Part shown: positions 2,646-64,000 of the stretch, in pieces
How the letters are laid out: each line of letters begins with the position of its first letter
Numbering within the stretch: position 1 is the first letter of the stretch
NCBI RefSeq assembly: GCF_009389715.1
Contig: NC_052402.1
Location: 18,365,985-18,429,984, forward strand
Reading direction: 5' to 3'
DNA: 64,000 bases
DNA from: Phoenix dactylifera
Lineage: Eukaryota; Streptophyta; Magnoliopsida; Arecales; Arecaceae
The notes under the pieces: generated by a model
Databases searched by the model: none
What the model was told of the DNA's origin: nothing
The model's input: the letters and a program-made list of their open reading frames with translations, nothing else
Translations under genes and position numbers: made by a program

Positions 2646-4925
2646 TGAAAGGCAACGACGAATGAGGAGCCTTTAAGATCTTTATGAGGTAACGAAAAAT
2701 TTAAGTGATGATCTAACTCTTTTTTGTTACTTTGCCAATTGTGAGCCCATAGTTTTTGAATAAGCGGTAAAAGATGAAAAGGAAGAGTTGCCATAGATGA
2801 GGAGTTCAAGTTGATTGAGAAGAATGACTCTTGAGCGTTGGCAACCATGTTGGAAGGTCAAAAGTCCATTAGTGTGAAGTGGGTGTAACAACCCAGGACC
2901 TCACCCAAAATGGCTAGTTGGAAGTTTTTATTTGGGTTCCTTGATCCTGTATAAGTACCCAAGATTTATCCAGCAAATAACCGATGTGGGACTAAACACA
3001 CGCCCACACGGATCCTTACATACTCCCCCATTCAAGCCCTGACGTCCTCGTCAGGCTAAGGGTTCAAATCTAATCACAAACACCACGATTGGCCCGTGGT
3101 CAGCCCCAATGGATCCGTTTGCAGTGTTCCCTAGTCCAATAGATTATGGGCCGGGTCGGCTCTGATACCATTTGCAACAACCCAGGACCTCACCCAAAAT
3201 GGATAGCCGGAAGTTACTATTTGGGTTCTTTGATCCTGTATAAATACCCAAGATCTACCCAGCAAATAACCGATGTGGGACTAAACACACGCCCGCATGG
3301 GTCCTCACATACTTCCTCTGTTCAAGCCCTGACGTCCTCGTCAGGCTAAGGGTTAAATCCATTCAAATCTAATCACAAACACTATGATCGGCTCATGGTT
3401 AGCCCCAAGGGATCCGTGCTGCAGTGACCCCTAGTCCACATAGATTATGGGCCGGATCCTCTCTGATACCATTTGTAACAACCCAGGACCTCACCCAAAT
3501 GGCTAGCCAGAAGTTTCTATTTGGGTTCCTCGATCCTGTATAAATACCCAAGATCTATCCAGCGAATAACCGATATGGGGCTAAACATACGCCCGCACGG
3601 ATCCTCACAGTGGGTTTGTAAAGAAAAGAAGAATGCTAATGATAAAGTAGAGAGATACAAGATAAGGTTGGTAGTTAAGGGATATAGCCAACGTTCCGGG
3701 ATTGATTATAATGAAGTGTTTCCTCCCACTGCATGGTTGGAGACCATCCGAATGATAATCTCACTTGCATTTCAAAGGAATTGGAAGATTTATCAAATGG
3801 ATGCCAAATGGCTTTCTTAAATAGCATTCTTAAAGAAGAGGTTTATATTGAACAACCTTTGGGCTATGTGATCAAAGGCCATGAAGACGAAGTGTTGAAG
3901 TTGAAGAAAGTCTTGTATGGTTTGAAGCAAGCGCCAAGGGCTTGGCATAGTCGGATTGACAAGTATTTTCAAGAGAATAAGTTTACTAAGTGCCCACATG
4001 AGTATACTCTCTATGCTAAGGTACGTAAAAATAAAGATATTTTGCTTGTTTGTTCATATGTTGATGATTTAATTTTTACGGGCAATAATACAAGTGTGTT
4101 TGGAAAGTTTAAGCAAGCTATGACTAGAAAGTTTGAAATGATGGATATTGATCTCATGTCTTATTATCTTGGCATTGAGATCAAACAAATGGAGGATCGA
4201 ATTTTTATTTTCCAAGAGGTTTTGCCAAGGAGATCCTTAAGAGATTCAAGATGGAAGATTGTTAATCTGTGAGCACTCCAGTAAAATATGGAGTCAAATT
4301 GTCTAAGCATGAAGAAGGAGAAAAGGTAGACTTTACAACCTTCAAGAATCTAGTTGAAAGTTTGAAATACCTAACTTGCACAAGGGATATACTTTTTAGA
4401 ATTGGGCTTGTTAGTCGGTTTATGGAGTCATCAAGTATGACACATTTCAAAGCGGCGAAACAAATTTTTTGTTATATCGAAAGTACAATTAGTTTTGACT
4501 TACTTTATTTATTTTCTAATGAATTTAAGCTTGTGGGCTATAATAATAGTGATTGAGCCGAAGATATGGATGATGGAAGAGCACTATCGGCATTGTTTTC
4601 TATTTAAAGAATACGACATGGAGTTTGAAGAAACAATCAATTATGACACTTTCTACTTATAAAATTAAATATGTTGCCGCTATATCTTATGTTTGTCATG
4701 AAAATTGTTGAAAGAGTTACAAATGCCACAAAAAAAGGCTACGAAGATATATTTGACAACAAATCGGCCATTGTACTGGTGAAGAATCTGGTTTCTATGA
4801 TATAAACAAGCATATAGATATGAGGTATCATTTTCTTAGAGATTGTATTGCAAAAAACGAAGTACAAATAAAGTATGTGAAGACATATGATCAAGTTATG
4901 GATATTTTTACGAAGCTTCGAATTT
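2646..4925 (+). pseudogene. Copia reverse transcriptase and RNase H remnant, split by a TRIM
   Basis: The N-terminal piece stops at 2883 and the domain resumes at 3610 with WVCKEKKNANDKVERYKIRL-like sequence. The catalytic YVDD box is at 4057-4068 inside SYVDDLIFTGNN. A degraded RNase H follows to about 4925. The 726-bp insertion falls between two halves of one codon context: K-W before it and V-C-K after it are in the same frame once the insert and one target duplication are discounted. A frameshift near 3820 and many stops after 4556 add to the decay. Confidence 0.9.
2884..3609 (-). mobile_element. Tandem TRIM (three LTRs, two internal regions) inside the copia RT
   Basis: Units in minus orientation: LTR 2884-3020, internal 3021-3172, LTR 3173-3309, internal 3310-3473, LTR 3474-3609. 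LTRs are 136-137 bp with TG...CA ends. On the minus strand each internal part starts with a TGGTATCAGAG primer site and ends in a G-rich polypurine stretch. A perfect 5-bp target duplication, GTGGG, is at 2879-2883 and 3610-3614. There is no coding capacity. Tandem arrays of TRIMs sharing LTRs are known and are explained by recombination between LTRs. Confidence 0.93.
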
Positions 4926-12720: not shown

Positions 12721-12725
12721 TTTTA

Positions 12726-13218
12726 TGTGAGGATCCATGTTGGCATGTGTTTAGTCCTACATTGCTTATTTACTGGATAGATTTTGTGTACTTATACCAG
12801 ATCAAGGAATCCAAATGATACTTTCTGACTGGCCATTTGGGTGAGGTATTGGGTTGTTACAAATGATATTAGAGAAGACCCGGTTCATAACTTATGTGGA
12901 CTAGGGACACTGCAACACATATCCATTGGAGCTGACCACAGGCCGATCGTAGTGCTTGTGATTAGATTTGAATGGATTTGACCCTTAACCGCACAAGAAC
13001 GCCAAGACTTAAATAGGGAGAGTGTGTGAGGATCCGTGCGGGCATATGTTTAGTCCCACATCGGTTATTCGCTGGGTAAATCTTGAGGATCCGTGCGGGC
13101 ATGTGTTTAGTCCCACATTGGTTATTTGCTGGATAGATCTTGGATACTTATACAGGATCAAGAAATCCAAATAATATCTTTCGGTTGGTCATTTTGGGTG
13201 AGGTCTTGGGTTGTTGCA
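12726..13218 (+). mobile_element. TRIM element, second copy, with a partly duplicated 3' LTR
   Basis: 5' LTR 12726-12861 (TGTGAGG...TTACA), a decayed primer site just after it (AATGATATTAGAG), and 3' LTR from 13025 to 13218. Perfect 5-bp target duplication TTTTA at 12721-12725 and 13219-13223. The first 55-60 bases of the 3' LTR are repeated in tandem (about 13029-13084 and 13085-13140). There is no open reading frame. Confidence 0.92.
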
Positions 13219-17619: not shown

Positions 17620-20600
17620 TCACACGCACACAGAGGCAAACGCACAATCATCGGCGCTTGCTCCCACGCTCATGCGTCTCCCTCTCCCTGGACCCCCTCG
17701 CCGGCCGCCCCTCCTCCTCCGCCTCCCTCCTCGACGACGACGACGGCCTCCTCTTGAAATGATAATACTCCTCGCTCGACTCATGGTCGTACCCGCCGCC
17801 GCCGCCCCTCCGACCGACGACGAACCACCACCTTTCGATCCCTTCCACTCGTCCCTATTCCCGTCCGAACTGGACCGGCGGTGGGCCGACTCGTGCTGGT
17901 CCCTGAGCCCGTTCTTCAGCGGCAGCTCTGACGACTTCCTCTTCTTGCCGGCCCCCTCGCCTCCGCCGCCTCCGGCGGCGGATGAGGAGTGCGGGAAGCT
18001 GATGCGGGAGAAAACGCTGCCCTTCTGCTTCCGATCCAGCTTGGCAGTCTCGGCCGGCGGCGGCTCGTCGTGGTCCGAGGCCCTTCTCTTCCCGGCCCGG
18101 CTCGGGGAGTGCCGGCCCGAGTCGCGGGGCGGGCCGTGTCGGTCTGCTCGGTCGGACCGGTCGACGCTTGCCTCTTGGGATGTCAGCCTCTGAAACAAAA
18201 CACGATATGTTGCTCATCATGCACCTACCGTGACAAAAATAACACATAACAATGCTAAATCTTAAATTACACGCCTCAATTGCCCTCGGCCAGTGGCCAC
18301 AACATGGCTAAACGTAAATCTTTTTAAAAAGTTACAAATTAACACCTCTTTCCATCATCTACTATAATACATCATACATTGATAAAACTGATCAATTGAC
18401 TCAAAACTCTTTCTCCCTCTTCAAAGTTACCAATGACTGAAGTAATTTGAAGGCAGACAATGCCTGCCAATGTAACACCGTGACAATTTATTGAATCCAT
18501 CATGTATGGCTCTCAGTGGAGATAGGGGACATAGCCTAATCCACTTATACGAATCCACCAGGACGAAAATGATCCAAACGAAGGACTACATAAAAGATGG
18601 CTTCAACCTAACTGTGCTTCATGATGGCAATGGACGGCGCCAAGTAAGTTACAGGCGAACCCTAACTAGCACAAAGCCAAGAGCCATTTGGCTTCCAGGG
18701 TGCTCTCCGGAAAAGCTAAGTATGGAAGAACTCACGATTTCTCGACGTATGTCCGTGATTTATTATTACCTAGAAAGAAGGGGGAAAAACCCCTCAAATG
18801 TGTCCTCTAACAAGTTCCCTACGTTCTCGTGGCTCAGCAGGTCTAATTGAAGCCATCAGAGGCTTGCCCTTTCTCGAATGCCATCCCCCAATTCGAGAAA
18901 CAAGATTTCCAAGCCTCTTTCCATAAGAAGGGGCAGTAGCAATGGAGGAGAATGAAATAGTGGAAAGGAGCCGTACATTCTCGCTGCATCCACGAAAACC
19001 AGCCCAACTTTAGGAGAATAGCTTGCTATAGCTGCCTGAAGACCTGTTTCCAAATAATAAAAATGGGCAGCCAAAAGGTGCCAAGACCATGGTCAGCTTG
19101 GTGATGACCATGATCCAGTGAGCATACATGTCCCGCACGAGTGCACCAAGAACGACTCGATAAATCTAGGGCTTTCGAGGGATGAATCACAAACCGTCAC
19201 TCGCCCAAAGATGAATCCACATCTTACACCAGACCAAGACCAATAACAACTTCCAGCATATGCAAGGAAAAGCCCTATTCTGGCGAAAAACGAATCCCTC
19301 CTGAAAGTACTAATGCTGAAGAATTGCATCTTCTGCTAATGCTTATATTGATTGGGGTCTTAGATCTCCTTGGGAAATCCCCTTTTCTTGATAACCCTAT
19401 TCCCCCTATCATCATCCGGAGCTGCCGCAACTCGGGCTCTAATGCTGATACGATGACGCCCAGAGTACAAAAATGAATAAGCAAATGAATCAACAAAAGA
19501 AGACATACGGGCTTCGACTTCAATGAAGAAACGCCATTGGTTCCATTTGGTTCCCTTCTGGGCTCCCTATCCTTGGAGCGCTCCCTCTCCCTGAAACAAA
19601 CAGCAACTTCAGCAATCAAAAAAGGGAACAACAAAATCCACAAGCAGCACAAGGGCATTCCCTGAAACCTCCAGAGGATCAAAATCCATGAAAATGACAT
19701 GAATGACTCGATATAAAAAGAAAGCTACTTGGTATTACAACGATGGAAGCAAAAACAGCAGCATCAAACTCTCTATATCCATGTTATAAAGCTGCAGAAG
19801 ATATCGGTATATATACATGCATACACATAAAGATAGATGGATACATATAGAGATATATGATAAGGATCTTTAAGGCATTGCTTGAAATAATAATCCCACC
19901 AATATAATACAAGAAACTACAGGTGGTTTGAGAGGCATACCAAGCATGATGTATATTATTGATGTCGTTTATTGGAGAATGATTACAAGTGAGCAATAGG
20001 TATTCACCCTGGGAACAGTGCATGTCAATACATACTGAAGATTGGATTGCTGAATAAAAAGATGGAAGAATAAAGGCTCCTTGGAGTAATAGAGATACAT
20101 AATATATTAGTCAAAATAAAATATATCTCATGCAGTGCCACTCTAGTGGAACGTGTTGAAGCTGACAGTGCGAAAAGAGCCAAGGGGCAGAAAATTTGTT
20201 CATCCAACAAGTTTTCACTACAAGAATGCATAGATGAGCGTAGCAAGCGGTAACAAAGATACACTTATCTATGGTAAATTTATGGTAAAACAAGGCCGTA
20301 TAGAGTAAGGAAAGAGCCAGAAGGGAAAACACTTATTTATAGCACCACTGGAAAATAAAGCAAAGGAAAAAGGTGAAGATGACATAAAATGGAAAAAAGA
20401 TGGTCCAAACAAGAAGAGGAGGCCTGAAATATAAAGAAATCGATGCCAAGGATTAAAACAGAGAACCCAGACATGAAGTATGGGTTGTTTGTTGATATAA
20501 AAGTTCAATGCATTCAAAGATAGTTTACACTCACAGATTCCTAGGTTAAGATTTAGAAAACAACGACATCAAGAAAAATATGAAAAAGGACATAATATGT

Positions 20601-23600
20601 AACATGTCGTGTTACCAGTATATGCGAGATTTCAAATATAATGAACTACAGAATTTTGCACCATACTTCAGATAAATTAAGAAAAAGATGGATAATAAGA
20701 GCAGATTGAAGAATTGCGTCAAACCCTGGCGCATGCACTAAGAAACAAAACGTAGGAGTTAAATAGGATAGCAACTAGCTGCTGATATATTAGGAAAAAG
20801 CCCGGACTAAACTATTGCATCTACCACATAATGTCATTTTATTTTTAACTGCCTTTCTTCTCTACATGTTGTAAATATTTACCCATGATTACATCCATCT
20901 ACACTATGCCTATGAATATATGTGCATATTTTGGTCAACTATTTTATCTTATCTGATAAGTAATTATACTACTAGTTTCTCATGTAATATAGCAAATAAA
21001 CCACTACGAGAAACTTAAAATTGAAAAAGAAAAAAAAAAGATCAAGGAGTATCATGTGCATGTAATGTTATAGCTGTAACATTGTGTATATTAGCTTTCG
21101 CATAACACCATTAAAATTCTTATCTTTCAATTCCATTTAAACCACAAACAGCAAGCCTTGAACACATAAATTTCACAGCATAATTTTCAGAAAATTACCA
21201 AACACCATTCTAGGACCTAGAAGCTGAAATCTCCTCAGCTGCCTAACACAGTTATCTTGTTCATGTGCGCGTATGCGTGTGCATGTCTGTGTGTATATAC
21301 ACATTTAAGCAACACTTCAGTTTGGCATTGCAAAAACATCAACAAATTCAGAAAAATGAAAAAAAAAACAGAACTAAAGAGTAACCATTTGAATTACCTT
21401 TCATTGAGTCGGTCCATTTCACGCTTCCATCTTAGATCAGCTTTCTTAGCCTCAAATTCTTCCCTGGTCAAATATCCATGCCCCTGGTTCATACCCACGA
21501 TGCCTAAATTGGACAGATCCCTGCAAATGTATATTTTTTTCAATTTATGCAGCTTTCACATATGCTGTAAGTGAACTACGCATATAAAATCAAGGGAACT
21601 ATGACAAAAAAAAAAGTTGGTTATAGTTTCAAATTTCAAAATCTCTCTTTATCTTCTAGCTCTGAGGATGTCTTATAACTCTACAAGGACTTGTAACTAC
21701 CAAGCATACCTTGGAACTACTGGCATCATATAACTTTGTGCAGTAAATGGATCTCGTGGAAGAATACCTCCCCCAAAAGGAACATCAAAGGGGCCAGGCG
21801 TATAACCCATGTATTGCATGGGACCAGTGAAAGATGCCATGTATCCATCAACTCCAAATGGCATTCCACTACCAGCCCAGTAAGGGTTGTAGCCCGAAGC
21901 AGCCAAAGGCATCCCAGCAAAGTTTTCAGCTCCAAAATCTTGATAAGCCCTCCACTGCATGTCAGAAGCTGCAGACAGGAAAGGGAAGAAGCAAAGGTAA
22001 AGTAGTCAGACTGATTTTTGATTTGCGTACTACACAAAACATTTGATGATTTGCAGTGCATGTACAAGATAAAAGATTGGTACCACTGAGTAAAGTAGAA
22101 CAAAACAAAGGTAATGCACTAACCGTTACCAGCCATCCGTGTCTTCTTCTTCTTCTTCTTCTTTCCTGGTAAAAAAAAGGAATGAAATAGCTTTCTTAAG
22201 GGAACAGAATAGACCAAAAGGAAAGGTTTTCATAAAACCAGTGATTGATCATAATCACTGGCTTGCATAGTTACCGGCCCAGACAAATATAACTAACTGG
22301 AATTCCTTTGTCAAGCACCAACTGCAAAACCTCTCACTTTAGGATGCACCCTTTTTGATAAACAGATTCTACATTAATCTAAAAGATGATCTGAGATCAT
22401 AGGATAGTTTACTTGTTCTACGGAACCTTTGCAACAGTTCCAAACACTTACCATTTGCAGTGCATATCTTTGATATTTATTCTCTAACTTAGACAGACAA
22501 CTAGTAGACAATAAACAAATTTTAAAAAAAAATCATATTGCATTGCAAGTGCAGATCACCCACCTTGCTCTCTAGTAATCAACTTTTCCTGGCCTTCTTC
22601 AGGAACTGGAGCACTCTCAGGTGATGGTTCTTTTGCACTCGCTGATTCCGGCATTGCTTCAGATTTATTCACATTTGCAGTGACCTTCTTTTCCACAGTA
22701 TTTGTCTCAAATATTGCAGCCTTTACATTGCTTGCAGCCTCCCCTTCCTTCACATTTGGAGAACGTTCCAGTGGAGGAACTTGTTTATGTTCATCTTTGG
22801 AAGCAGCAGAAAGAGTAGGAGACAGGTTCTTGGGTTGTACTAGGCGAGCTGACTCCATATCTGAAAGACCAGAAGATACAGGACATTTCCATCAACCGCA
22901 TACAAATAACTATATATCACAAACCACGAAAAGTATTCATACCTTGACCATGAACAAGATTTCCTGCATTTTCTGTACTATTGGTTGTTGACTCCATTAT
23001 GCGACTAATTGTTTCCCTAAGTGTTCTATTTGGCAGAAGGTCATCTGCTAGTATGCCTGTAGCACCACAGACACACACTGACTTGCTAATAATATAATCT
23101 CTTATGCCTGGTGGAAGAAAATAAAATTGGCAATTGATCAAAAGGAAAAATTAAAACTTTGCTCTCTTAGTTTTACGTGTGCCAAATAATATAACACAAG
23201 AAAATTGAGTTCAAAGCATCAAGACACTTACATTTGTCACAAAAACTCTTAAAACAGCACTTGCTAGTCAAAACAGCATCTTTCATTACTTCTTTACAAA
23301 GTGGGCAGCCCAATTCTGGTGGAAGATCACTAACAGGACGAGCGGTAGGTAGCCCCTCAATTTCCTTCTCAAATGCAGCTCTATATAGGAAAAGTTGCTC
23401 ATCAGCTGTCATTTCTATCACAATACTGTAATAACAAGGAACACTGCATGAAGTCATCAACTTACTCATTTGGCTTAAGAACAGCAACAGCACCACCAGG
23501 CAACGCATAGGATGTCACGCCCCAAGCCCGAGGCGCGGCAGACGCCGCACGCCCGCACGGCGGGCCGCACGGGCGCGCAAGGCAGCAGATCATATCAAAG

Positions 23601-26600
23601 CAGATGCAGCTATTCAAAGATGACATAATTATTTAAATTGTATAAAAGCGGTCTTACAAAATTTCAAAATAGCATATGCCAACATAGTTCAAATATCCAA
23701 ACTAATTTAACTAAAATGCTCATAATCGAAGAAATCATCGAAAAATCTAACGCACTCCCCAATCCCGTGCGATCAAGCCTCTGGATCTGAAAAACAGAGA
23801 AAATAAAATAATGAGCTACACTAGCCCAGCAAGCAACAAAATACCTCAAAGTAGGGTCAGAGCATAACAGATCAAAATACAGGATAATGTCTGGAATCAA
23901 TCACAAATATCATTGTTTTGCTGTTTTCAAAACTTATTATCATTTTTCCGAAAACTCTGATACCAGAATCTCAACATGATAGGCTACGGCCACGTAACCC
24001 GGTAGAATGGGTTGCACAGAGTGCCAGAAACCACTATTGTTAGTCACCGATGGCAACGGTGTCCAGAAACCACTATTCTAATCACCGATGGCACGGTGTC
24101 GAAACCGGTTCCTCACAGATTACAAGTCGACAGGTCCAACGTATAATCCCCATTGGCGGGGCCAGAACAGAACAGATCATAGCCATGCTGAGAATGCATA
24201 AATATAAAAATAGATTTCATAAACTGTACAGGTATGTTTCACGAAATTCAGAGCATATAATATAATTTTCAAATAAAATTTAATATGCCAGACCCATTTT
24301 ACTAAACACAAAACATATTTCAAAATTTAATCCAGTAATAAATTACTTTACCAAATAATTTGGAGAAATGCACTTTGAAGCATTAAGTTACTTACCTCTT
24401 CTCGCTTGATTCCTACTTCAGGTAGACGGATCAGGTTCACCTGTTTAAATTTAATTAATTCCTTGTTAATTTTAGAACTAAGCAAAATCCAGAAATAATT
24501 CTATTGGACATAGCCCAACAGGGCCTAGAATTGGCCCATAATGGGCATGGCCCTATAGGGCCCATATCGGATACGGCCCAATGGGCCCACATAGACTCAG
24601 CTAACTAGGGCCCCCAATGTTGGCTTCTAATTGTACCTGTATGCAATAAAATTTATTGCATGGACTAATACTTAATTACAGGGTACTGTTCTATAATAAA
24701 ACTTGAGTGAGGGGACTAAATAAATATTGTTGGGGACCTTTACGTAATAAGTCTTTTCTATAGGGATCAAATACAAAATACAGAAGATCCTTTTTGTGAA
24801 ATAATAATATACTGTCAAGAGCTTATCTGCAAAATTTCATTTATTGGCTAAACGGGTTCGGTTTTCGGGTTCGGGTTTCAGGTTCGGGTTCGGATCTGAA
24901 CTGGACCCAAGTTGGGCCCACAAGAGTACTGCCCAACTGGGCCCAACCGAACTGGACTGGGCCCAAGTTGGGCCTGCAGTGGACTGGGCCCAAGTTGGGC
25001 CTGCAGTGGACAGGGACCAACGGCCCATCACAGTGTTCACGGCCCACAGTGGGCCTTCCTCCTTCCCGATCTCCCCATGGACAGAGGTGATGGGAAAACG
25101 GGGAAGGAAGGGGGGCGGCAGGGTGGTCGGTCTAGGTGGCCGGATGGTGGTCCGGCCGGCGGCTCGTGGGGGCGCAACTGTCGGTAGGGCGGTCGTGGCC
25201 GGCGGCAGATTGCTGCGGTGACCGGCGTCGAGAAAGAACCGAGAAGGGTCTCGGTGTGGGCCGATGCAAAGGGGAAAAATATGCTATTTGGCATGGAATC
25301 AAGGCAAGAGAGGGCTTACCGGCGGTGGCAGAGGCAGTAGGAGGAAGATCTCGGCCGCCGGTGCTCGATTCGGTGGTCAAGCGGCGGTGGCGGCGGTGCT
25401 TTCCGAAGAGGAAGAAGGTCTCAAAACAGGGGAGGCTCGGGTGGTGGTGGTGGTTGGCCAAGGCGGCCCGCCGGCGGCTTGGGAAGAGGGAACCGAGGGA
25501 GGAGAGGGAGAAGAGAGGGCTCGGTGGTGCTCTAGGGCAAGAAAGGGTGGGGTTTTTATCGTCCCCTCCGTAACGGCCCTCCGCCGCGAAAATCGCGGCG
25601 GTCGGGCGAGATTCGTGGCCGTGAATTGGGCGCGGATTGGCTGGGGGGGCGCCGCAGAATACCCGCGGCGTCGTTGCCCTGTTTGTTCCCCCGAAGGAGC
25701 CGGAGAGGATCGCCAACGTGATCCTCTGTTCCGGCTCCTCCCCTAATTGAATCGGGGCTGAAGTCGGCGAGGGCTGCCGATTTCAGCCCCGTGTCTCACA
25801 TAGGAACCATCAGGAGTTGCCATTAACATTGATTTAGGAATGCCAGTTGGGGGTCTCACCCTTTTAACATCATAATTTGGATCACCATTTGTGGGGCAGT
25901 GCTGGATAAAATGACCTGAACAAAATTAAAAAAAACTCTTAACATACATTAACTGGCGCTCGCAAATGCTGAAAACAATTAATTACAATGACCTCATTAG
26001 TCAACATATTATAAACGTACCTGGCACTTTGCATCTTTGACAAACATAGCCTGCTGGAGGTGTCCTTCGCTCCAGCCCACCTCGGCCTTAATTTAATGAG
26101 AAAAATGAAAATGTTAGTATCCAGGAAAATGGGAAGATAAAATAAAGTGATACATGCAACATATATCATAAAACTAAGAATTCGACTGCTTTTGCAACAA
26201 AAAGTCTACAAAAGAATGGATAGCAAATGTTTTAATCCTAAAATGCATTTGTGGAATCCCTATCATCACAAACATATACAGGAACCAAGAGAGTATATGC
26301 TACTTTTAGAGGAATATACATATATAAAGATGCAATTAACCAAATCCTAGTTCAATTTAAAAAGTTAACGTTATTGTGAGGCTCTGAGTGTAAGACAGTC
26401 AAAGAAGGAAAATGACACAAGAATAAAAAGCTATACAAAGACGGGAAAAGAGACAAGCATGAAGAGTTCTACAAGTGTTCAAGGGATTACCAAAACCACG
26501 ACCAGCCATCATCCTCCCACCCATTCCCCTACCAAAGCCTCTTCCAGCACCATAACCTTCTTGTGTTTGACTGCAAAGTTACATTGACCCAGTGAAAAAC

Positions 26601-27983
26601 ATTATGTTATAAATGATTCCTCATTGGTAAACAAAATGTGACTGCTATTGCTGCTCCATTCTCTCGAACTTCTCTAAACTTTTTAATTTCCAAAAAATAA
26701 AACCACTGAAATATAAGAAATATCAATGGTCCAATTAAATGTCTCACCGATTCCAGTCAAGGGCAGGTGTGTCAATTAAAGCCTTAATCTTGCTATCCTC
26801 ATCAACCTTATTTGCAGGAGAAACATCTACCACTGGACTGCCTGACTGAGCAGGAAGGACTTCTGGAATAGCATACAAATCATTACCAAACTCATCCCAT
26901 TCAGATTCTTCAGGCTGCAAAATGTGATTGAATGTGTATTATCAATATCCTTGCCATCAATCAAAGATGAGAACGGTCAGGAAAGATACACCCATTATCC
27001 ACTCAAGAATTAAGATAATGGTGGCTGGCACCAATTCAGAATGAAGAAAAAAAAAATTAAGCACCTAGAGAATCATATTCAAATATTATTAGTCTTACAT
27101 ATTTCACGGTAGATGGGTCGCCAACCAAAGTGTTACTTGCTGGTGGAAGATCTTCTAACTTATCCTCTACAACTTTTGTCCTGCAGATGGAATGCAAACT
27201 TTCAATATCAAAATCCAGTCAGGAAAGTCATCCACATTGTCTCAAAGTTGTCTTACAAAATTTGATCCTAATAAAGTTTCAAAATATTTCAGTAACACTA
27301 CATCCCTCCCACATAACCAAATCTAAAAATCATTAGCAAAAGCATAATGTAAATGCAAATAGAAGAGCTCATCAAATGCTCAAGATTCAGAGTGTGAGAT
27401 AGTACTCGTCTCGTTCTGTAACAATGGGCTTCCGTGGCCGTCCTGGGATGCGACGAATCAATACTGATGTATTTTTGGGTATCATAGCAGCTTCGTCTGC
27501 ATATTCTGAAACCGAAAATGGAAGAACACAGAGTCTATAAAAATCCAGAGTGAGATTAGAGCAACCTACATTGCTCCGAGCAAGGTAACTCAACAGATAC
27601 ACTATCAATCGAACAGTAGCCACAATCTCACCCCAACTCCATTACCCCTTATCTCTTAATTTTTCAAGCACAATTATCTAAAAATACTCCAATCAATCCT
27701 TTTTTTATTAGTTTTTAGTCTAATGACAATTAATTCTGAATGAACTGAACCATCCTCCTACAAGTAAACTGCATGAATAAACCAATCAAGAGAACCTAGT
27801 CTAGAAGAAGAACCAACCTTCATTAGTCTGCGCATTGGAGACCATGAGGTCAAAATCGGTACCCCTTCCCAAATGCTTGAATTCAAAAATTCGTTCTTTC
27901 AAATTGGCAACAGATATGAATTGACCCTCAATTAGAATAGAGTCGTAATCTTTTGCACTTTTAAACTTATAATACACAGCCAT
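17620..27983 (-). CDS. PQT3: PQT3/RBBP6-like E3 ubiquitin ligase (DWNN, CCHC, RING), interrupted by a solo LTR
   Basis: Exons (minus): 27818-27983, 27406-27505, 27099-27180, 26748-26914, 26491-26570, 26021-26086, 25801-25915 plus 23466-23507, 23232-23380, 22943-23107, 22564-22860, 22124-22165, 21710-21968, 21398-21520, 19509-19590, 17620-18189. Phases agree throughout and give 834 aa if the insertion is ignored. Domains: DWNN ubiquitin-like fold (about 3-76, starting MAVYYKFKSAKDYDSI), CCHC knuckle (214-227, CQRCKVPGHFIQHC), RING/U-box-like finger (298-337, CPLCKEVM...CVCG), a linker with a KKKKKK-TR basic patch, and an Arg/Ser-rich tail. In plants PARAQUAT TOLERANCE 3 is a negative regulator of oxidative-stress tolerance acting as an E3 ligase; function here is by homology. 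A 2,288-bp insertion splits the codon of Tyr259, and the C-terminal frame is doubtful (see findings). Confidence 0.88.
24023..24098. repeat. Short tandem repeat in the solo LTR
   Basis: CCAGAAACCACTATT...CACCGATGGCACGGTGTC occurs twice with a period of about 38 bases. Confidence 0.6.
24953..25012. repeat. 27-bp tandem repeat in the solo LTR
   Basis: Two full units of GGACTGGGCCCAAGTTGGGC plus CTGCAGT, with a diverged partial unit on either side. Confidence 0.75.
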
Positions 27984-31945: not shown

Positions 31946-32383
31946 TGTGAGGACCCGTGCGGGCATGTGTTTAGTCCCACATTGGTTATTCGCTGGGTAG
32001 ATCTTGAGTACTTATACAGGATCAAGGAACCCAAATAATACCTGCCGGCTAGCCATTTTGGATGAGGTCTTGGGTTGCTACAAATGGTATTAGAGCAGAC
32101 CCGGCCCATAACTTATGTAGACTATAGGACATTGCAACACGGATCCATTGGAGCTGACCACAGGCCGATCGTGGTATTTATGATTAGATTTGAATAGATT
32201 TAAACCCTTAGCCTGACGAGAATGTCATGGCTTAAACGGGGGAGTATGTGAGGACCCGTGCGGGCGTGTGTTTAGTCCCATATCGGTTATTCGCTAGGTA
32301 GATTTTGGGTACTTATACAGAATCAAGAAACCCAAATAATACCTTCCGGCTAGCTATTTTGGGTGAGGTCTTGGGTTGTTACA
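31946..32383 (+). mobile_element. TRIM element, third and most complete copy
   Basis: LTRs 31946-32082 and 32247-32383, both 137 bp, TGTGAGGACC...TTGTTACA. The primer site TGGTATTAGAGC is at 32085-32096, two bases after the LTR. The polypurine tract AACGGGGGAGTA abuts the 3' LTR. The internal region is 164 bp with no open frame. Flanking 5-bp duplications are CTAAC (31941-31945) and ATAAC (32384-32388), one mismatch. Total 438 bp. Confidence 0.93.
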
Positions 32384-32602
32384 ATAACCAAACAGATTGT
32401 AATACTGGCAGATCATACAAGTTTAAGTTAACATCTAGTCAATTACATTACAGGTGAAGAGAACTTATTAGACATTCTTTCAACTGGAAACGCTGCCTCA
32501 TAATAAACCCAAAGCCATGCCACATATATATATATGATGTCTAGGGCAAATGACCCTCAAAGACTTTACTGGTGATCTGTTTCTAGGAACGAACCAGTAT
32601 CT

Positions 32603-42200: not shown

Positions 42201-45200
42201 TTTGTGAACCAAAATGTCACCTAAGTTCTTGGTTGCATAACATTAGCTTCATAATCTTATTTTATTATTTCTTTGGTTTTGATACGTACATGGCAATATC
42301 GGACTATCCCACTAGCTACTTTCTGCACAATCTCTTACTAGCTGGTAGCAGCGCTTCTGACTTCTTAGTTGTGGGAATTTATATAGATTTTTGCAAATCT
42401 AAAATGCATTTGGCATCACTATCACTTTTCTTTTTAAAAAAATTGAAACAAGAATTTTATTCCCATTTTTTTTTTATTTCTGGCAACAAAAACATGTTTA
42501 GTAGTCCCTATTTTTTCACAACCAAAAAAAGAAAGCATGTTTGGTAAGCCAAAAGTAACAATTCAAAGTAGTTGTATTTTCCCTATATTCTCTAAGATGT
42601 ATTTATCGACTATAACAACCACAACTGCTATAGACATCATAGTTAACAAGCCCAAATTCATAACTCGTTGACCTAAAAATTTTGAAAACATAACAATATT
42701 GTAATCAACTATAGCCATACAAAAGTGAAAATATCAGTTCAGTGAAACATCAAATAGCATCTAATTAGCCCTATTCTCTCTTTGCCATATATTATTGGCT
42801 ATGTTATTTTGAATTTGATTCACTTGGTATGTTTGACTTTGTGAAACATTTACTTGGACTCTCTCCTACGATGTGCTGCCTTCTTGAGGTTGTACATCAT
42901 CATCTACTATAATGGCCTCCCTCTCATATTACTCAAATAAATGATCTTTCACGGAATGCATATTGCTAAAATTATGTATAGTACATCATGCAGTTACGAT
43001 TGTGTGCATAGTTTATAAGGAGGTATTTGTTTAAGACTTGGGAATCGAGCTTTTAGTACTTCAAATCAATGCTTGATAACACTGTGCAGTGATTAGTTCT
43101 GTAGTTAAATAGCTCCTCTATTTTAGTAGGATTCCATTCTGCTTCCTTATAGTCGCTCAAGTGGTATCATTCTCCACGATATAACGATAAAAGACCTGTC
43201 ATATTAGGGACCCCAACTCAGCGAGATGGTACTTCTTCTTACATTATTTACATAACTAAAGAAAAGTAATATAAGATAATATCAAATTATCTTCAGGGGG
43301 TAAAGAAAATTTGCATTCTGGGTTTGTGAGGCACTCCAGAAAGATTCTAGCATCATTTGCAGTTCCTTCCATTCCATCAATACATATGTAAAGCACGTGT
43401 TTAACGTTGAATGCACATGCAGGTATAATATTTTGTGTTGGATGTATCCTCTTCCCACGATATAGAATTTGCTCATCCACTGGGACACATGCAGCAATAT
43501 GTCTCCCATCTATAGCTCCAATATAGCTCTGCATAAGATAAAAGCACAAAATGTTATTCATATTATATAGCAAAATTTATAAAGTTGTTGGTTAAAATAA
43601 ATTACCTTAAGATATGGATAATATTTAGGATTGACTCGAATCTCAGGAGGAGTTATATCAAAAGATGGGGGAACAATTAACTCTTTGCCAATGTGAAAAA
43701 TTGGTTTGAGAACTTTATTGAAGTGTCGGGATATGGTTTTTCCTGAGTGTTGAAATCTTTCTTCCATAACTCTATTTCGCTCATTGTGAGATATCGTCAC
43801 CAAAAATATTGCAACTTGCTCCTCTATAGATAAAAACTTTCAATTTTTCAGAAGTTGTTTCTCCTTTAATAAGTTGCAAAAATCTGTAAATAAATGTGGC
43901 TCCATTCTGAATTAATTATGACATCTATTTGGATGACCTTGGAGCACCTCAACTATATATTCATGCCCTGTTAAGCAAGAGGTTCTACAAGGTTGCTTGC
44001 ATAAATACTTGTCAAAATATTCAGCAATGGCTAAAATCAATAGCATCTCTTATGAGCCATCATTTATATTATAATCAAAACTTATCGGATGAGTTCAGTT
44101 GTAGCTATGAGATTTTGAGATGCCATCTCTCCAACCTGTCAACATACAGAATGATCTAAATGATTCCATCAAATTACGAATACTGTTATGTCAATCAAAG
44201 ATGATTAGAGCACATAAAAAAATAAGTATCACCAAATATTACTTCACATCATTCTAACACATTACATGATTTTTTTCAACCATAACAGATATGCTTACTA
44301 ATTTGCTAAACATTTATTTGTAACATCCATAACAGCCATATTAGGCAATGTTCTTGAAATAGGGAAATACTATCTTGTTGATTCGGGGTACCCCAATATG
44401 CCAGATTTTTTTTCACCATGTCATGGAGAAAGATATCACCTGAGTGACTATTGGGGAGCAGGACAGAATCCTATCAAACTAGAGGAGCCATTTAACTGCA
44501 GACACTCATCATTAGTCAATGTTATTGAGCGTTGCTTTGGAGCACTAAAGACTCGATTCCAATTCTTTAACAAATGCCTCCTTATAAACTCTGCACACAA
44601 TGTTACATTGTAACTATATGTTGTGCTATACATAATTTTATCAAAATACATTTTGTGAGAGATTGTTTATTTTAGGATATAAGAGGGAGGACATTATAGT
44701 AGATGATGATGATGTGCAGCCTCAAGGAGGCAGCATATTGCCAAAGAGAGTCCAACTAAAAATGTCCCAACGTTGAATACGCCAGTTGAATCAAGTTCAA
44801 GATAACATAGCAAATAGTATATCTCAAAGAGAAACTAGGACAAATTAGATGTCTTTGTGCTGATATTTTCACTTTTGCGTGGACATATATTAATATAACA
44901 ATGTAACCATGATGTCTATACTGATGGTAGAGATACATATATCTTAGAGAATAGCAAAGAAAATACAATTGCTTTGAATTGTTACTTATTTCTTACCAGA
45001 CATGTTTTCTTTTTTCTGTTGTAAAAAAAAAAAAAAAACTAGCAAACATATTTCTGTTGTCAAAATTCTGAAAAAAATGGAAACAGAATTCATGTTTCTA
45101 ATTTTTTTAAAAAAAGAAAAGTGACTATGATGCCAAACACATCTAAAGCTGTTATTTCCACCTTTGTCACTACAAATCCACATCCTTTTGTTCTTCCCCC

Positions 45201-58090: not shown

Positions 58091-60236
58091 TTTTTTTGGT
58101 GTATACGTACTCATGCCATCCAACGCTATTAAAAAGTTAATAATTTAAAATTAAAATAATTGAAACATCCTTAAGGATAAATATGCGAAAAGAAACATTT
58201 ATAAAGGTGTGTATATATATATAAATAATACTTTTGCAAAAATATTTATATAATTTTATATATTTATGAGGATATAAATGCAAAAAAAATTAAATTTTGC
58301 ATAAATATCGTTCTAAATATTAGAATTTATACGAATACTCTGACCAATTAATATTTATATGCATGCCCTTATAAAATACTATTTTTGTATGAATATTTTT
58401 GACATAGCAATTTAGCTGGCATGATTAGCAAAAATCACATTTATTTAAAAATTAATTAAAATTATTAAATTATCTTTTTTTATTTCTAAAGCAAGTAACA
58501 GGTTAACGGGTCTCGTTAGGAATTAATATTTCTACCCCCTGTGGGAAATTTTTCGATATCTCTCAATCCCTTTCTTTTATTCCTCCGTTCAGGATCAAAA
58601 CTATTCCCTCTCTAATATTTTTTAGAGCTAAAAAATTTCTTGCATACAAGGTGGTGGTTGATTTAAAATTGTTGTGACAAGATGGGCCTATGAGCACAAC
58701 AGTAGTAAGGAAGCTTGATTATTGCGATTTATTATGTGCCTTCAAGAGATTTTAATTCTTTTCTATATTCTGATACATGCTTCATATATGCATCTATGAT
58801 AATAAAAATTACAAGCTAGTTTTGGATGAAATAAGATATAGTGATTGTTAAAAAATAAAGTAGAATAAAGTAAAATAATTTTATGATTAGTGAAAGAACT
58901 TTAATAACTTTTTTTGTTATCTATTTGTCGAATCTATCTTTGTTTCAAGCAATATTTTTACAGAAAATATTGAGGAGCAGGCACTAAACTAATCCAAGTA
59001 TTAAAGCAAGTTGAAATAGTCAAAAAAAATAATTTTCTGCATGCAAATCCTTCTAAATATGTGAAATTATATGAATACCCTTGCAAAGTTGCTATTTACA
59101 TATATACCCCTATAAATATTTTTTGTATACGTATCTATTAAGGATATTTTATTTATTTTTTAATTTTAAACCGCTAATTTCTTAACAACATTAGATGGTG
59201 TAGGCATATATGTAAGACAAAAGAAAAAAGGGGTTTACAAGAAAAATAAGTATTTTATAAAGGTATACATGTAAATATCAATTTGGGAAGGATATTCATG
59301 TAAATTTAAATATTTAGAAGAATATGTGCACAAAAAAAATAAAAGAAAATATTAAAAGATATTAGTTGCGAAGGTCTTCCAATATGCACGTGAGATGCAC
59401 AAAAAATTGGTTTTAACTAAAACACATAAACAAGTCTACTGTTATAAACGAAAATACTAGTAAGTTATTTCAATACCTAAATTCTTAACCAATCTCTTCT
59501 TTTTTAACAGAAAAAGCTCACTTTTAAAACTAATATAATGGGTAAAACTCATCCAATCCAAAGACTCATTTAGTTCACGGAAAGAATTTTTTTTATTGGA
59601 ATATTTTTCTAAAAAGCTGATGTCTGGATATATGATGCTTGGAAAAGTAGTTTTTGTATGTTTGGTTGATCATGAAAAAATAACATATTTTAGAGTGACT
59701 TATATTTGGGTGAGCATCTAGTTTTTTGAAAAAGTGATGTAAAGTACTTATTATGCTCTTAATTAAAAAAATATTATTCTATTCTATCTAAAAACTTAAG
59801 GGTACTTTTGAAAAAAAAATAATTCTCCATCGCTGGAAATTAGATTTTTCTATATGCTACATGAGTTTTTTATTTTCATAAAATATGAAAATCTTATTTT
59901 CATGAGAAAGTTACTTTTTCATCTCTTTTCTTTGAAAACTCTAACGAAGCATGAAGTATTTTTCTATTTTTCTATTGACCATACTTTCTTCCCTTCTTTT
60001 CCCACAACGAAACGAGTCCCAACTCTCTAACAATTAATAAAAGCTACAATTGAAAACTTTGAATAGTATTTATCCAATTCAAATATATATCTACTATCTA
60101 GACATAAACTAGATATAAGCGTCCATGTAGTTGCCCGCTCCACCTCTACCAATTCATAGCCTCCACCCAATGGGCCTTTATGGCCATGTCTCCTATCTCC
60201 ACCATGGCCTCCACCACCTAGTCCAATCTATTTTAT

Positions 60237-60247
60237 ATACATACATG

Positions 60248-60280
<33 letters not shown>
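60237..60280. repeat. CATA tetranucleotide repeat
   Basis: About nine CATA units; a shorter version lies at the matching place in copy B (63216-63240). Confidence 0.85.
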
Positions 60281-60281
<1 letters not shown>

Positions 60282-60814
60282 TATATATACACACACTTAT
60301 AATATGAAGTCTCAACTTGTATTAAGCTTTCCATTCACCTCACGGATGCCTATTTAATAATGAGGCATATATTAATGACATCGATATTAATATAATTTGT
60401 TAACATTGTTTCTAACTATATATATCTAAAATGAAGGCTCAACTTTGTTGAGCTCTCCGTTCACCATGTAGATGATTGTATTAATGATGAGCATCTATTG
60501 ATTATGCCAATTTTAATATAATCCGTTAACATCATCCCTGGGCTATTAACCTAGCAAATGCTATAATCTATTATCCGTTAACATCTCAACTTGGCTTATA
60601 TGGCATCCTTCATTGCTATGTAGATACAGTATTAATGAACAGATGGATTCGAGCATTTTAACTCTTTAGCAAAGTACCTAGCAAATCAAATGGAGGTAGG
60701 GCTACAAGAGAGGAATCTGAGAGTATACACGAAATGTCGGTTAGTGAGCCTAGCTAATTTTTTGTCCTAATTAGCTAAAGGATTAAGTACACTCACCTTG
60801 GATGAGTGTACCTT

Positions 60815-60942
60815 TTCTAGCATAGTCGATTGGATGATTTGGGCCATAGGATTGAGACAACCATACATATGAATCGAATTCTAGCATAGTTGATCAGATG
60901 ATTTGAACCATAGGATTAAGACAACCATACCTATGAATCAAA
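60815..60942. repeat. 64-bp tandem repeat in copy A
   Basis: Two units, each starting TTCTAGCATAGT and containing CATAGGATT(G/A)AGACAACCAT. Copy B has the same pair near 63811-63940. Confidence 0.8.
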
Positions 60943-61020
60943 CGGGGTACATACTAGTATTATCCATAATAAGAGCAATTAAGTTGACACAAAAAAACCA
61001 TATTTGAAAGAAGAGGGCGG

Positions 61021-62768: not shown

Positions 62769-64000
62769 AAGGACACTTTTGAAAAAAAACCCAATTCTCT
62801 CCCAGTGGAAATTGGATTTTTCTGTCTCACATGAGTTTTTTTTCATAAAATATAGGAATCTTATTTTCATAAGAAAGTTACTTTTCCATCTCTCTTCTTT
62901 GAAAACTCTAACCAAGCATGAAGTATTCCCTGTTTTCCCATTGACCATACTTTCTCCCTTTTTTTTTCCACGAACGAAACGAGTCCCAGCTCTCTAACAA
63001 TTAATAAAAGCTACAATTGAAAACTTTGAATAGCATTTGTCCAATTCGAATACTTATCTACCATAGATTCTAGGAGCTAGACATAAGCTAGATATAAGTG
63101 TCCATGTAGTTGCTTGCTTCACCTCTATCGGCTCACAGCCTCCACCCAATGGGCCTTTATGACCATGTCTCCTATCTCCACCATGGCTTCCACCACCTGG
63201 GCCAATCTATTTTATATACATACATGCATACATACATGCATATATACACTTATATGTATGTATCTATATAATATGAAGGCTCTACTTGTACTAAGCTTTC
63301 CATTCACAGGATGCTATTTAATAATGAGGCATATATTAATGACATCATTGTTAATATAATTTATTAACATTATTTCTAGCTATATATATCTAAAATGAAG
63401 GCTCAACTTTGCTGAGCTCTCCATTTACCATGTAGATGACCGTATTAATGATGGAGCATCTATTGATTACGTCAATTTTGATATAATCTGTTAACATCAT
63501 CCCTGGGCTATTAAGCTAGCAAGTCTATTATCTATCATCTAGTATATGTGTGTGTGCATGTATTATATATATAATAGAGTTTTGGCTTATATGGAGTCCT
63601 TCATTGCTATGTAGACATAGTATTAATAAATAGATGGATCCGAGCATTTTAACTCTTTCACAAGTACCTAGCAAATCAAATGGAGGTAGGGCTATAGGAG
63701 AGCAATCCGAAAGTATACATGAAGTGTCGTTTAGCGAGCCTAGCTAATTTTTTGTTCAAATTAGATAAAAGATTAAGAATAAGTACACTCACCTTTGATG
63801 AGCATACCTTTTCTAGCATAGTCGATTCGATGATTTGTACCATAGGATCAAGACATCCATACCTATGAATCGAATTCTGGCATAGACGATTGGATGATTT
63901 GAACCATAGGATTAAGACAACCATTCCTATGAATCGAACAGGTTACATACTAGTATTATCTATCTTCAAAAAAGAAGTGAAGTGAGGCTTTCCAAGCCGA

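Follow-up and report, generated by a model that had tools for sequence, protein, structure and literature searches.

A long terminal repeat (LTR) retrotransposon within a coding exon has been described in date palm (Phoenix dactylifera) before: the VIR-IM allele carries one in exon 3 of VIRESCENS, with a 5-bp duplication, a premature stop and a truncated protein, and it is described as a full element of 11.7 kb with 469-bp LTRs (PMC10673830). Here we describe a likewise exonic insert, in this case a 2.3-kb solo LTR, in a PQT3-like gene on a stretch of 64,000 nucleotides of the date palm genome (the window; contig NC_052402.1, forward strand, C11:18365985-18429984 in our searches). The Arabidopsis genes AT4G17410 (PQT3) and AT5G47430 are named as the two counterparts of RBBP6 and Mpe1 (PMC10839035). 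The reading that we favour, with a probability of roughly four in five, is that a recent exonic insertion of the solo LTR breaks one PQT3-like copy, which most likely no longer yields a full-length E3 ligase, and that its role presumably falls to an uninterrupted paralogue on contig C8.

Exon 7 of the gene (25915..23466, minus strand; 157 bp when the insert and one copy of the duplication are subtracted) is interrupted by an element of 2,288 bp (23513-25800), the plus-strand termini of which, TGTCACGCCC...GTCTCACA, are of the LTR type (TG...CA). It lies between two copies of TAGGA (23508..23512 and 25801..25805), a target-site duplication that is perfect over 5 bp and cannot be lengthened. Host exon abuts the insert on both sides, no internal region is found at the locus, and the insertion point falls inside the codon of Tyr259, between the zinc knuckle and the RING. 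None of the six open reading frames (ORFs) of at least 120 aa in the insert matched Pfam, and the 64-kb window holds no second copy of it. In the genome (773 Mb in 2,391 contigs, the one assembly searched) sequences matching the insert are dispersed, in at least 70 stretches (40 of 1,989 candidates scored). Because of this dispersal, and because the six other exon-7 loci in the same genome are uninterrupted, the interruption is not due to chance; the insertion in exon 7 is real and confirmed.

Several of the matches form same-strand pairs, two of which (on C142 and C14) were studied. The LTRs of the C142 pair (175506-177806 and 182672-184973) are mutually 98.06% identical over 2,268 aligned sites (K 0.0197), and both pairs have 5-bp duplications of their own, AGTAT on both sides of the C142 element and GATCA for the C14 pair. 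On C142 the stretch TGTGAGAC...GCGTGACA precedes TGGTATCAAAGC, which comes after the 5' LTR and is a usual primer-binding site. Before its 3' LTR lies a protein end with a Tf2-1-like SH3 domain (1.2e-27, above cutoff), followed by a Chromo match (6.9e-5) that at 23.1 bits falls slightly short of the cutoff of 25.1 bits. The paired LTRs with their own duplications and the SH3/chromodomain argue that the insert is the solo LTR of a chromodomain, Ty3/gypsy-type retrotransposon, an assignment taken from the SH3/chromodomain of the C142 relative. The orientation of that relative shows that the LTR, like the gene, has its sense on the minus strand of the window. The closest of the seven aligned LTR relatives is 95.8% identical over ungapped sites (K 0.044). 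No relatives of the LTR were found in viral contigs (three patterns) or plasmids, and literature matches to its start string, judged by title, included none on LTR elements. The CpG content was tried as a clock for the insertion and rejected: the observed/expected ratio is 0.875 for the LTR, 0.39 for host exons and 0.27 for host introns, which is compatible with a young insertion, but family composition could account for it too, so that no date follows from it. The solo LTR proposed in the first-pass annotation is thus borne out by the TG...CA ends, the two TAGGA copies and the paired LTRs in the same genome, and the edges and the exon model agree with its placement of the insertion in the Tyr259 codon.

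The host gene (17621..27983, minus strand, ATG at 27983) was modelled with GT-AG junctions for exons 1-13; exon 14 (about 19590..19509) and the last exon (about 18190..17621) are rough placements by gapped matches to the C8 paralogue of 79% and 81%, respectively. Ahead of the insert a DWNN domain (8.6e-32) and a CCHC zinc knuckle (9.4e-10) exceed the Pfam cutoffs, and the N-terminal part of the protein is similar to Mpe1 (7zgp) and RBBP6 (2c7h and 2ysa). After the insert there is similarity to the RING of RBBP6 (3ztg, 5e-10) and also to Mpe1, with sub-cutoff matches only to the Pfam RING and U-box models. These similarities indicate that the gene belongs to the RBBP6/Mpe1/PQT3 kind, in line with the PQT3-like E3 ligase named at first sight of the sequence. 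The 5' part of exon 7 (25801..25915, minus strand, including the duplication copy at 25801-25805) encodes the end of the zinc knuckle and a conserved TGIPK motif, up to Ser258 and the TA of Tyr259, and the 3' part (23466..23512, minus strand) comprises 47 nt including the other copy (SYALPGGAVAVLKPNE). The RING/U-box-like domain, which begins in exon 8 (23232..23380, minus strand), is severed by the insertion. In a HMMER alignment Pro247 of the window protein corresponds to Pro215 of Mpe1, which contacts the poly(A) signal in the structure of CPF (cleavage and polyadenylation factor; PMC9380774). Tyr259 lies 12 residues further, at about position 227 of Mpe1 by plain extension beyond the alignment, which would place it approximately in the loop of residues 224-239 described for yeast Mpe1 as disordered and poorly conserved (PMC9380774).

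Upstream of the insertion 258 residues are encoded, and the third position of the Tyr259 codon comes from the LTR, as its first base (TA + T). Read-through into the LTR continues for 18 codons after Tyr259 and then meets TAG (25743..25745, minus strand), giving 277 codons in total. As the first-pass annotation had it, the RING is lost by this stop, which precedes the RING exon (TAG at 25745-25743); the domain is present in the DNA of the interrupted copy and unreachable by read-through translation. The LTR sense strand also carries AATAAA twice. A truncated product would retain the DWNN domain, the knuckle and the conserved PSR motif, and would lose the remaining PSR, the RING and the C-terminus, which in Arabidopsis PQT3 is reported to bind PRMT4b (PMC5038976).

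A search with an N-terminal query (82 of 82 candidates scored) yielded seven exon-7 loci including the interrupted copy, and in all six others exon 7 is uninterrupted and intron-free. The first-pass annotation had reasoned that an intron shared by all homologues in related species at this point would speak against an insertion, and none of the six other loci in this genome has one; it had also proposed to look for a second intact copy, and this is the paralogue on C8 (L025). There exons 1-13 have the same lengths and GT-AG junctions, their frame is free of stops, and exon 7 is not interrupted; exon 14 and the last exon are gapped matches, so that the open frame holds for exons 1-13. Between the window gene and the C8 paralogue the synonymous divergence (dS) is 0.28 and the nonsynonymous divergence (dN) 0.073 (dN/dS 0.26).

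The other five loci are duplicates (L026 on C11 at 21.35 Mb, G000:C11:21354000-21363900, and L027-L030 on G000:C521) that are about 98% identical in most exons. In each of them the uninterrupted exons 1-7 are followed by exon 13; a deletion with its junction between introns 7 and 12 has removed exons 8-12. Exon 7 continues into exon 13 in phase, and the five copies share a stop at codon 293. Acceptors are altered in two of the five (AC before exon 5 in L026, TG before exon 4 in L029), and GT-AG is kept from exon 1 to the acceptor of exon 13 in three. At L029 one copy is directly adjoined by the upstream region of the next, as in a tandem array. An eighth locus (L031, G000:C11:18540000-18548000), about 153 kb from the host gene, has exon 1 and exons 11-14, with exons 2-10 missing. 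The RING exon is found only in the interrupted copy and on C8, besides weak distant matches on C1 and C6; the one on C1 (G000:C1:20537754-20537957), which matches the RING part distantly at 40%, is perhaps an older RBBP6-like paralogue. The zinc-knuckle peptide gave 245 pattern matches in genome_contigs and 30 in viral_contigs, none of which was confirmed by tblastn. Six of the seven PQT3 loci with exons 1-7 cannot encode the RING in one frame, one of them because of the LTR (277 codons) and five because of a shared deletion.

The empty site is the ancestral state, since six exon-7 loci are empty and precise loss of a solo LTR would be unexpected. By the same comparison the insertion is younger than the split of the interrupted copy from the duplicates, for which K was 0.0269 and 0.0275 in the two of the five that were measured (about 2.8 and 3.0 kb). 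Substitution rates per site and year are 1.3e-8 for grass LTRs and 2.6e-9 for palm genes, and with these the ceiling for the age of the insertion is roughly 1 or 5 million years. In exons 1-7 the window lineage has 4 nonsynonymous changes and 1 synonymous change, and the stem of the truncated copies 7 and 1. Set against the remaining 26:38 of the comparison between the window gene and C8, this gives p = 0.11 for the window lineage and p = 0.015 for the truncated stem. The truncated copies look unconstrained by this measure.

The course of events was most probably as follows. A full chromodomain (Ty3/gypsy-type) element entered exon 7, in the sense of the gene, in one of the two PQT3-like genes that have RING exons, and recombination between its LTRs presumably then left the solo LTR. 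Transcripts that enter the LTR would stop after 277 codons and be degraded, be polyadenylated in the LTR or give a RING-less protein of DWNN and zinc knuckle, and the uninterrupted C8 paralogue presumably buffers the loss. An extension of this, which we think unlikely, is that the six loci unable to encode the RING form a family of RING-less proteins with DWNN and zinc knuckle, in competition, both in mRNA 3'-end processing and in the stress response, with the C8 ligase as the only uninterrupted one; for yeast, Mpe1 with PSR defects has been reported to be worse than Mpe1 absent (PMC9380774).

The first-pass annotation had left two branches, a broken allele or an LTR turned into an intron. The former is favoured by our results and the latter turned out weak, as no exact GT-AG removal of the insert exists among the pairs tested. 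Both splice-site observations of that annotation were accurate. Directly after TAT the LTR begins with the donor-like GTGAGA (TAT|GTGAGA; 25794..25799, minus strand). With position weight matrices built from the 13 donors and 12 acceptors of the host gene only, it scores 6.25 bits, which lies among the scores of the native donors themselves (-0.7 to 8.5, leave-one-out); 4.3% of 3,011 minus-strand GTs reach this score. GTGAGA also serves as the native donor after exon 4, and TGTGAGA is retained at the 5' end of six of the seven aligned LTR relatives. The far edge indeed has no nearby AG: there is none in the final 97 bases of the LTR, the nearest LTR acceptor has its first exon base at 23609, and exact excision from the edge donor would give an intron ending in AT (GT...AT) and not in AG. 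The true acceptor of exon 8 scores -4.4 (leave-one-out), and a low score therefore does not exclude use. Among the GT-AG pairs tested, four give a single intron that preserves the frame, three of them through an acceptor in the 3' part of exon 7 (TTCTTAAG|CC, first exon base 23473). Only one of the four starts at the LTR edge, again with acceptor 23473, losing 11 residues and leaving an exon of 8 nt. A host donor at 25859 combined with this acceptor scores 12.5 bits, against 10.4 for the edge pair, but loses 31 residues, and the remaining two pairs have very low scores. A donor at 25827 (2.0 bits) could be spliced in frame directly to exon 8, at the cost of exon 7 codons. Skipping of exon 7 (the frame shifts) and splicing from the edge donor straight to exon 8 (a stop codon results) were rejected; skipping of exons 5-7 keeps the frame and the RING and loses the knuckle, by exon-length arithmetic and unscored. 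Removal of the LTR as an intron thus seems possible but unlikely.

The specific form this could take is a new intron from TAT|GTGAGA to TTCTTAAG|CCAAATGA, yielding an in-frame protein without the stretch ALPGGAVAVLK that lies after the zinc-knuckle/PSR motif and before the RING. It is the sole in-frame single-intron solution from the LTR edge (6.25 + 4.16 bits), and the loss might be tolerated there because the yeast Mpe1 loop at about that place is disordered and poorly conserved. However, the 11 residues differ from those of the C8 paralogue at one residue (ALPGGSVAVLK) and may therefore matter, the 8-nt exon would be left before native intron 7, and the acceptor is a weak one, its score being reached by 5.8% of the minus-strand AGs in the window. 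This acceptor is, moreover, old exon sequence, the sole window-lineage change in exon 7 on the 3' side of the insertion being silent (Ala260), and we consider such an intron quite improbable. Partial exonisation of the LTR, in which the edge donor is joined to a 45-nt LTR exon of 15 in-frame codons (candidate at 24396..24440, minus strand, i.e. 24440-24396; CAG|GTGAACC...GAG|GTAAGT) and this to the exon remnant, or in further combinations, has six in-frame two- or three-intron solutions among sites of at least 4 bits. All six need the weak acceptor at 23473 that leaves the 8-nt exon, and strong splice sites are no commoner in the LTR than in dinucleotide shuffles (2 donors against a mean of 1.73 and 3 acceptors against a mean of 1.74, with 48 of 200 shuffles as high), which makes it the least credible of these outcomes. 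A gene-like exon structure on the LTR sense strand, seen by eye, was rejected for the same reason, its splice-like sites not being above those of shuffled sequence.

The LTR and the gene share their orientation and exons 8-13 are open, so the LTR could in principle act as promoter of a 5'-truncated transcript with the RING and the C-terminal part; its sense strand, however, has no TATAAA, and we regard this as very unlikely. Much the same low probability applies to an artefact of assembly or haplotype, in which the insert would be misjoined, or present on one haplotype and unfixed. A single assembly was searched, and date palm genes are described as mostly heterozygous (PMC10673830), but transposition is what creates a perfect 5-bp duplication beside LTR-type ends, and a misjoin would not be expected to do so. 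Several points weigh against a broken copy all the same. The search of one assembly limits it; the LTR edge offers a reasonable donor; and one in-frame splice is available through sites of moderate strength. With the flanks joined, exons 1-13 of the interrupted copy show no second lesion, and the copy is therefore either recently broken or still partly used. Likewise, the ratio of 4:1 suggests relaxed constraint on this copy but is not significant (p = 0.11), the changes being too few. Breakage by the insertion nevertheless remains the reading we prefer.

The window contains some other repeats. A direct repeat of about 1.2 kb (59798-60964 and 62769-63960) has copies that are 84% identical and about 2.97 kb apart, and an imperfect inverted repeat at 42409-45137 has arms of several hundred bases with 77-80% identity. 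A dispersed family at 2884-3609, 12724-13218 and 31946-32384 (matches of about 130-440 bp, 80-91% identity) shows internal tandem structure and occurs in both orientations. An ORF at 3715-4272 resembles, by eye, a putative remnant of a copia-type reverse transcriptase.

The retrotransposon alleles of maize waxy (Varagona and co-workers, 1992) reportedly lie in introns and show alternative splicing; they too are insertions in a plant gene that could alter splicing, whereas the insert in the PQT3-like gene is exonic. Introners likewise are inserts with a target duplication, and with them too one splice site could come from the insert and the other from the host (PMC9860276). They form many-copy families, many with DNA-transposon signatures, leave mRNA length mostly unchanged and, according to the same report, were not found in land plants, and the palm insert is unlike them in that its far edge has no clean 3' splice site. 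The same kind of gene is lost in Arabidopsis pqt3 T-DNA mutants (PMC5038976) and in OsPQT3 knockouts (PMC10153630), plants reported to tolerate oxidative or salt stress better. The palm copy differs from these in being a natural insertion and in leaving an uninterrupted paralogue. Because Arabidopsis and rice plants that lack PQT3 cope better with oxidative or salt stress, the natural insertion allele of the palm is a candidate to be associated with stress tolerance. It also offers a clean test of how a plant cell deals with an exonic LTR in sense orientation, whether by stopping, polyadenylating or splicing. Literature on solo LTRs, exons, introns and splicing, and on exon insertion with cryptic splicing, mostly judged from listings, contained no evident like case. 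The nearest precedent appears to be VIR-IM, in date palm itself, which is described as dominant and with a known fruit-colour phenotype (PMC10673830). The mutation is of an ordinary kind, but its family history is unusually well documented: six empty loci in the same genome fix the ancestral state and place the insertion after the duplications.

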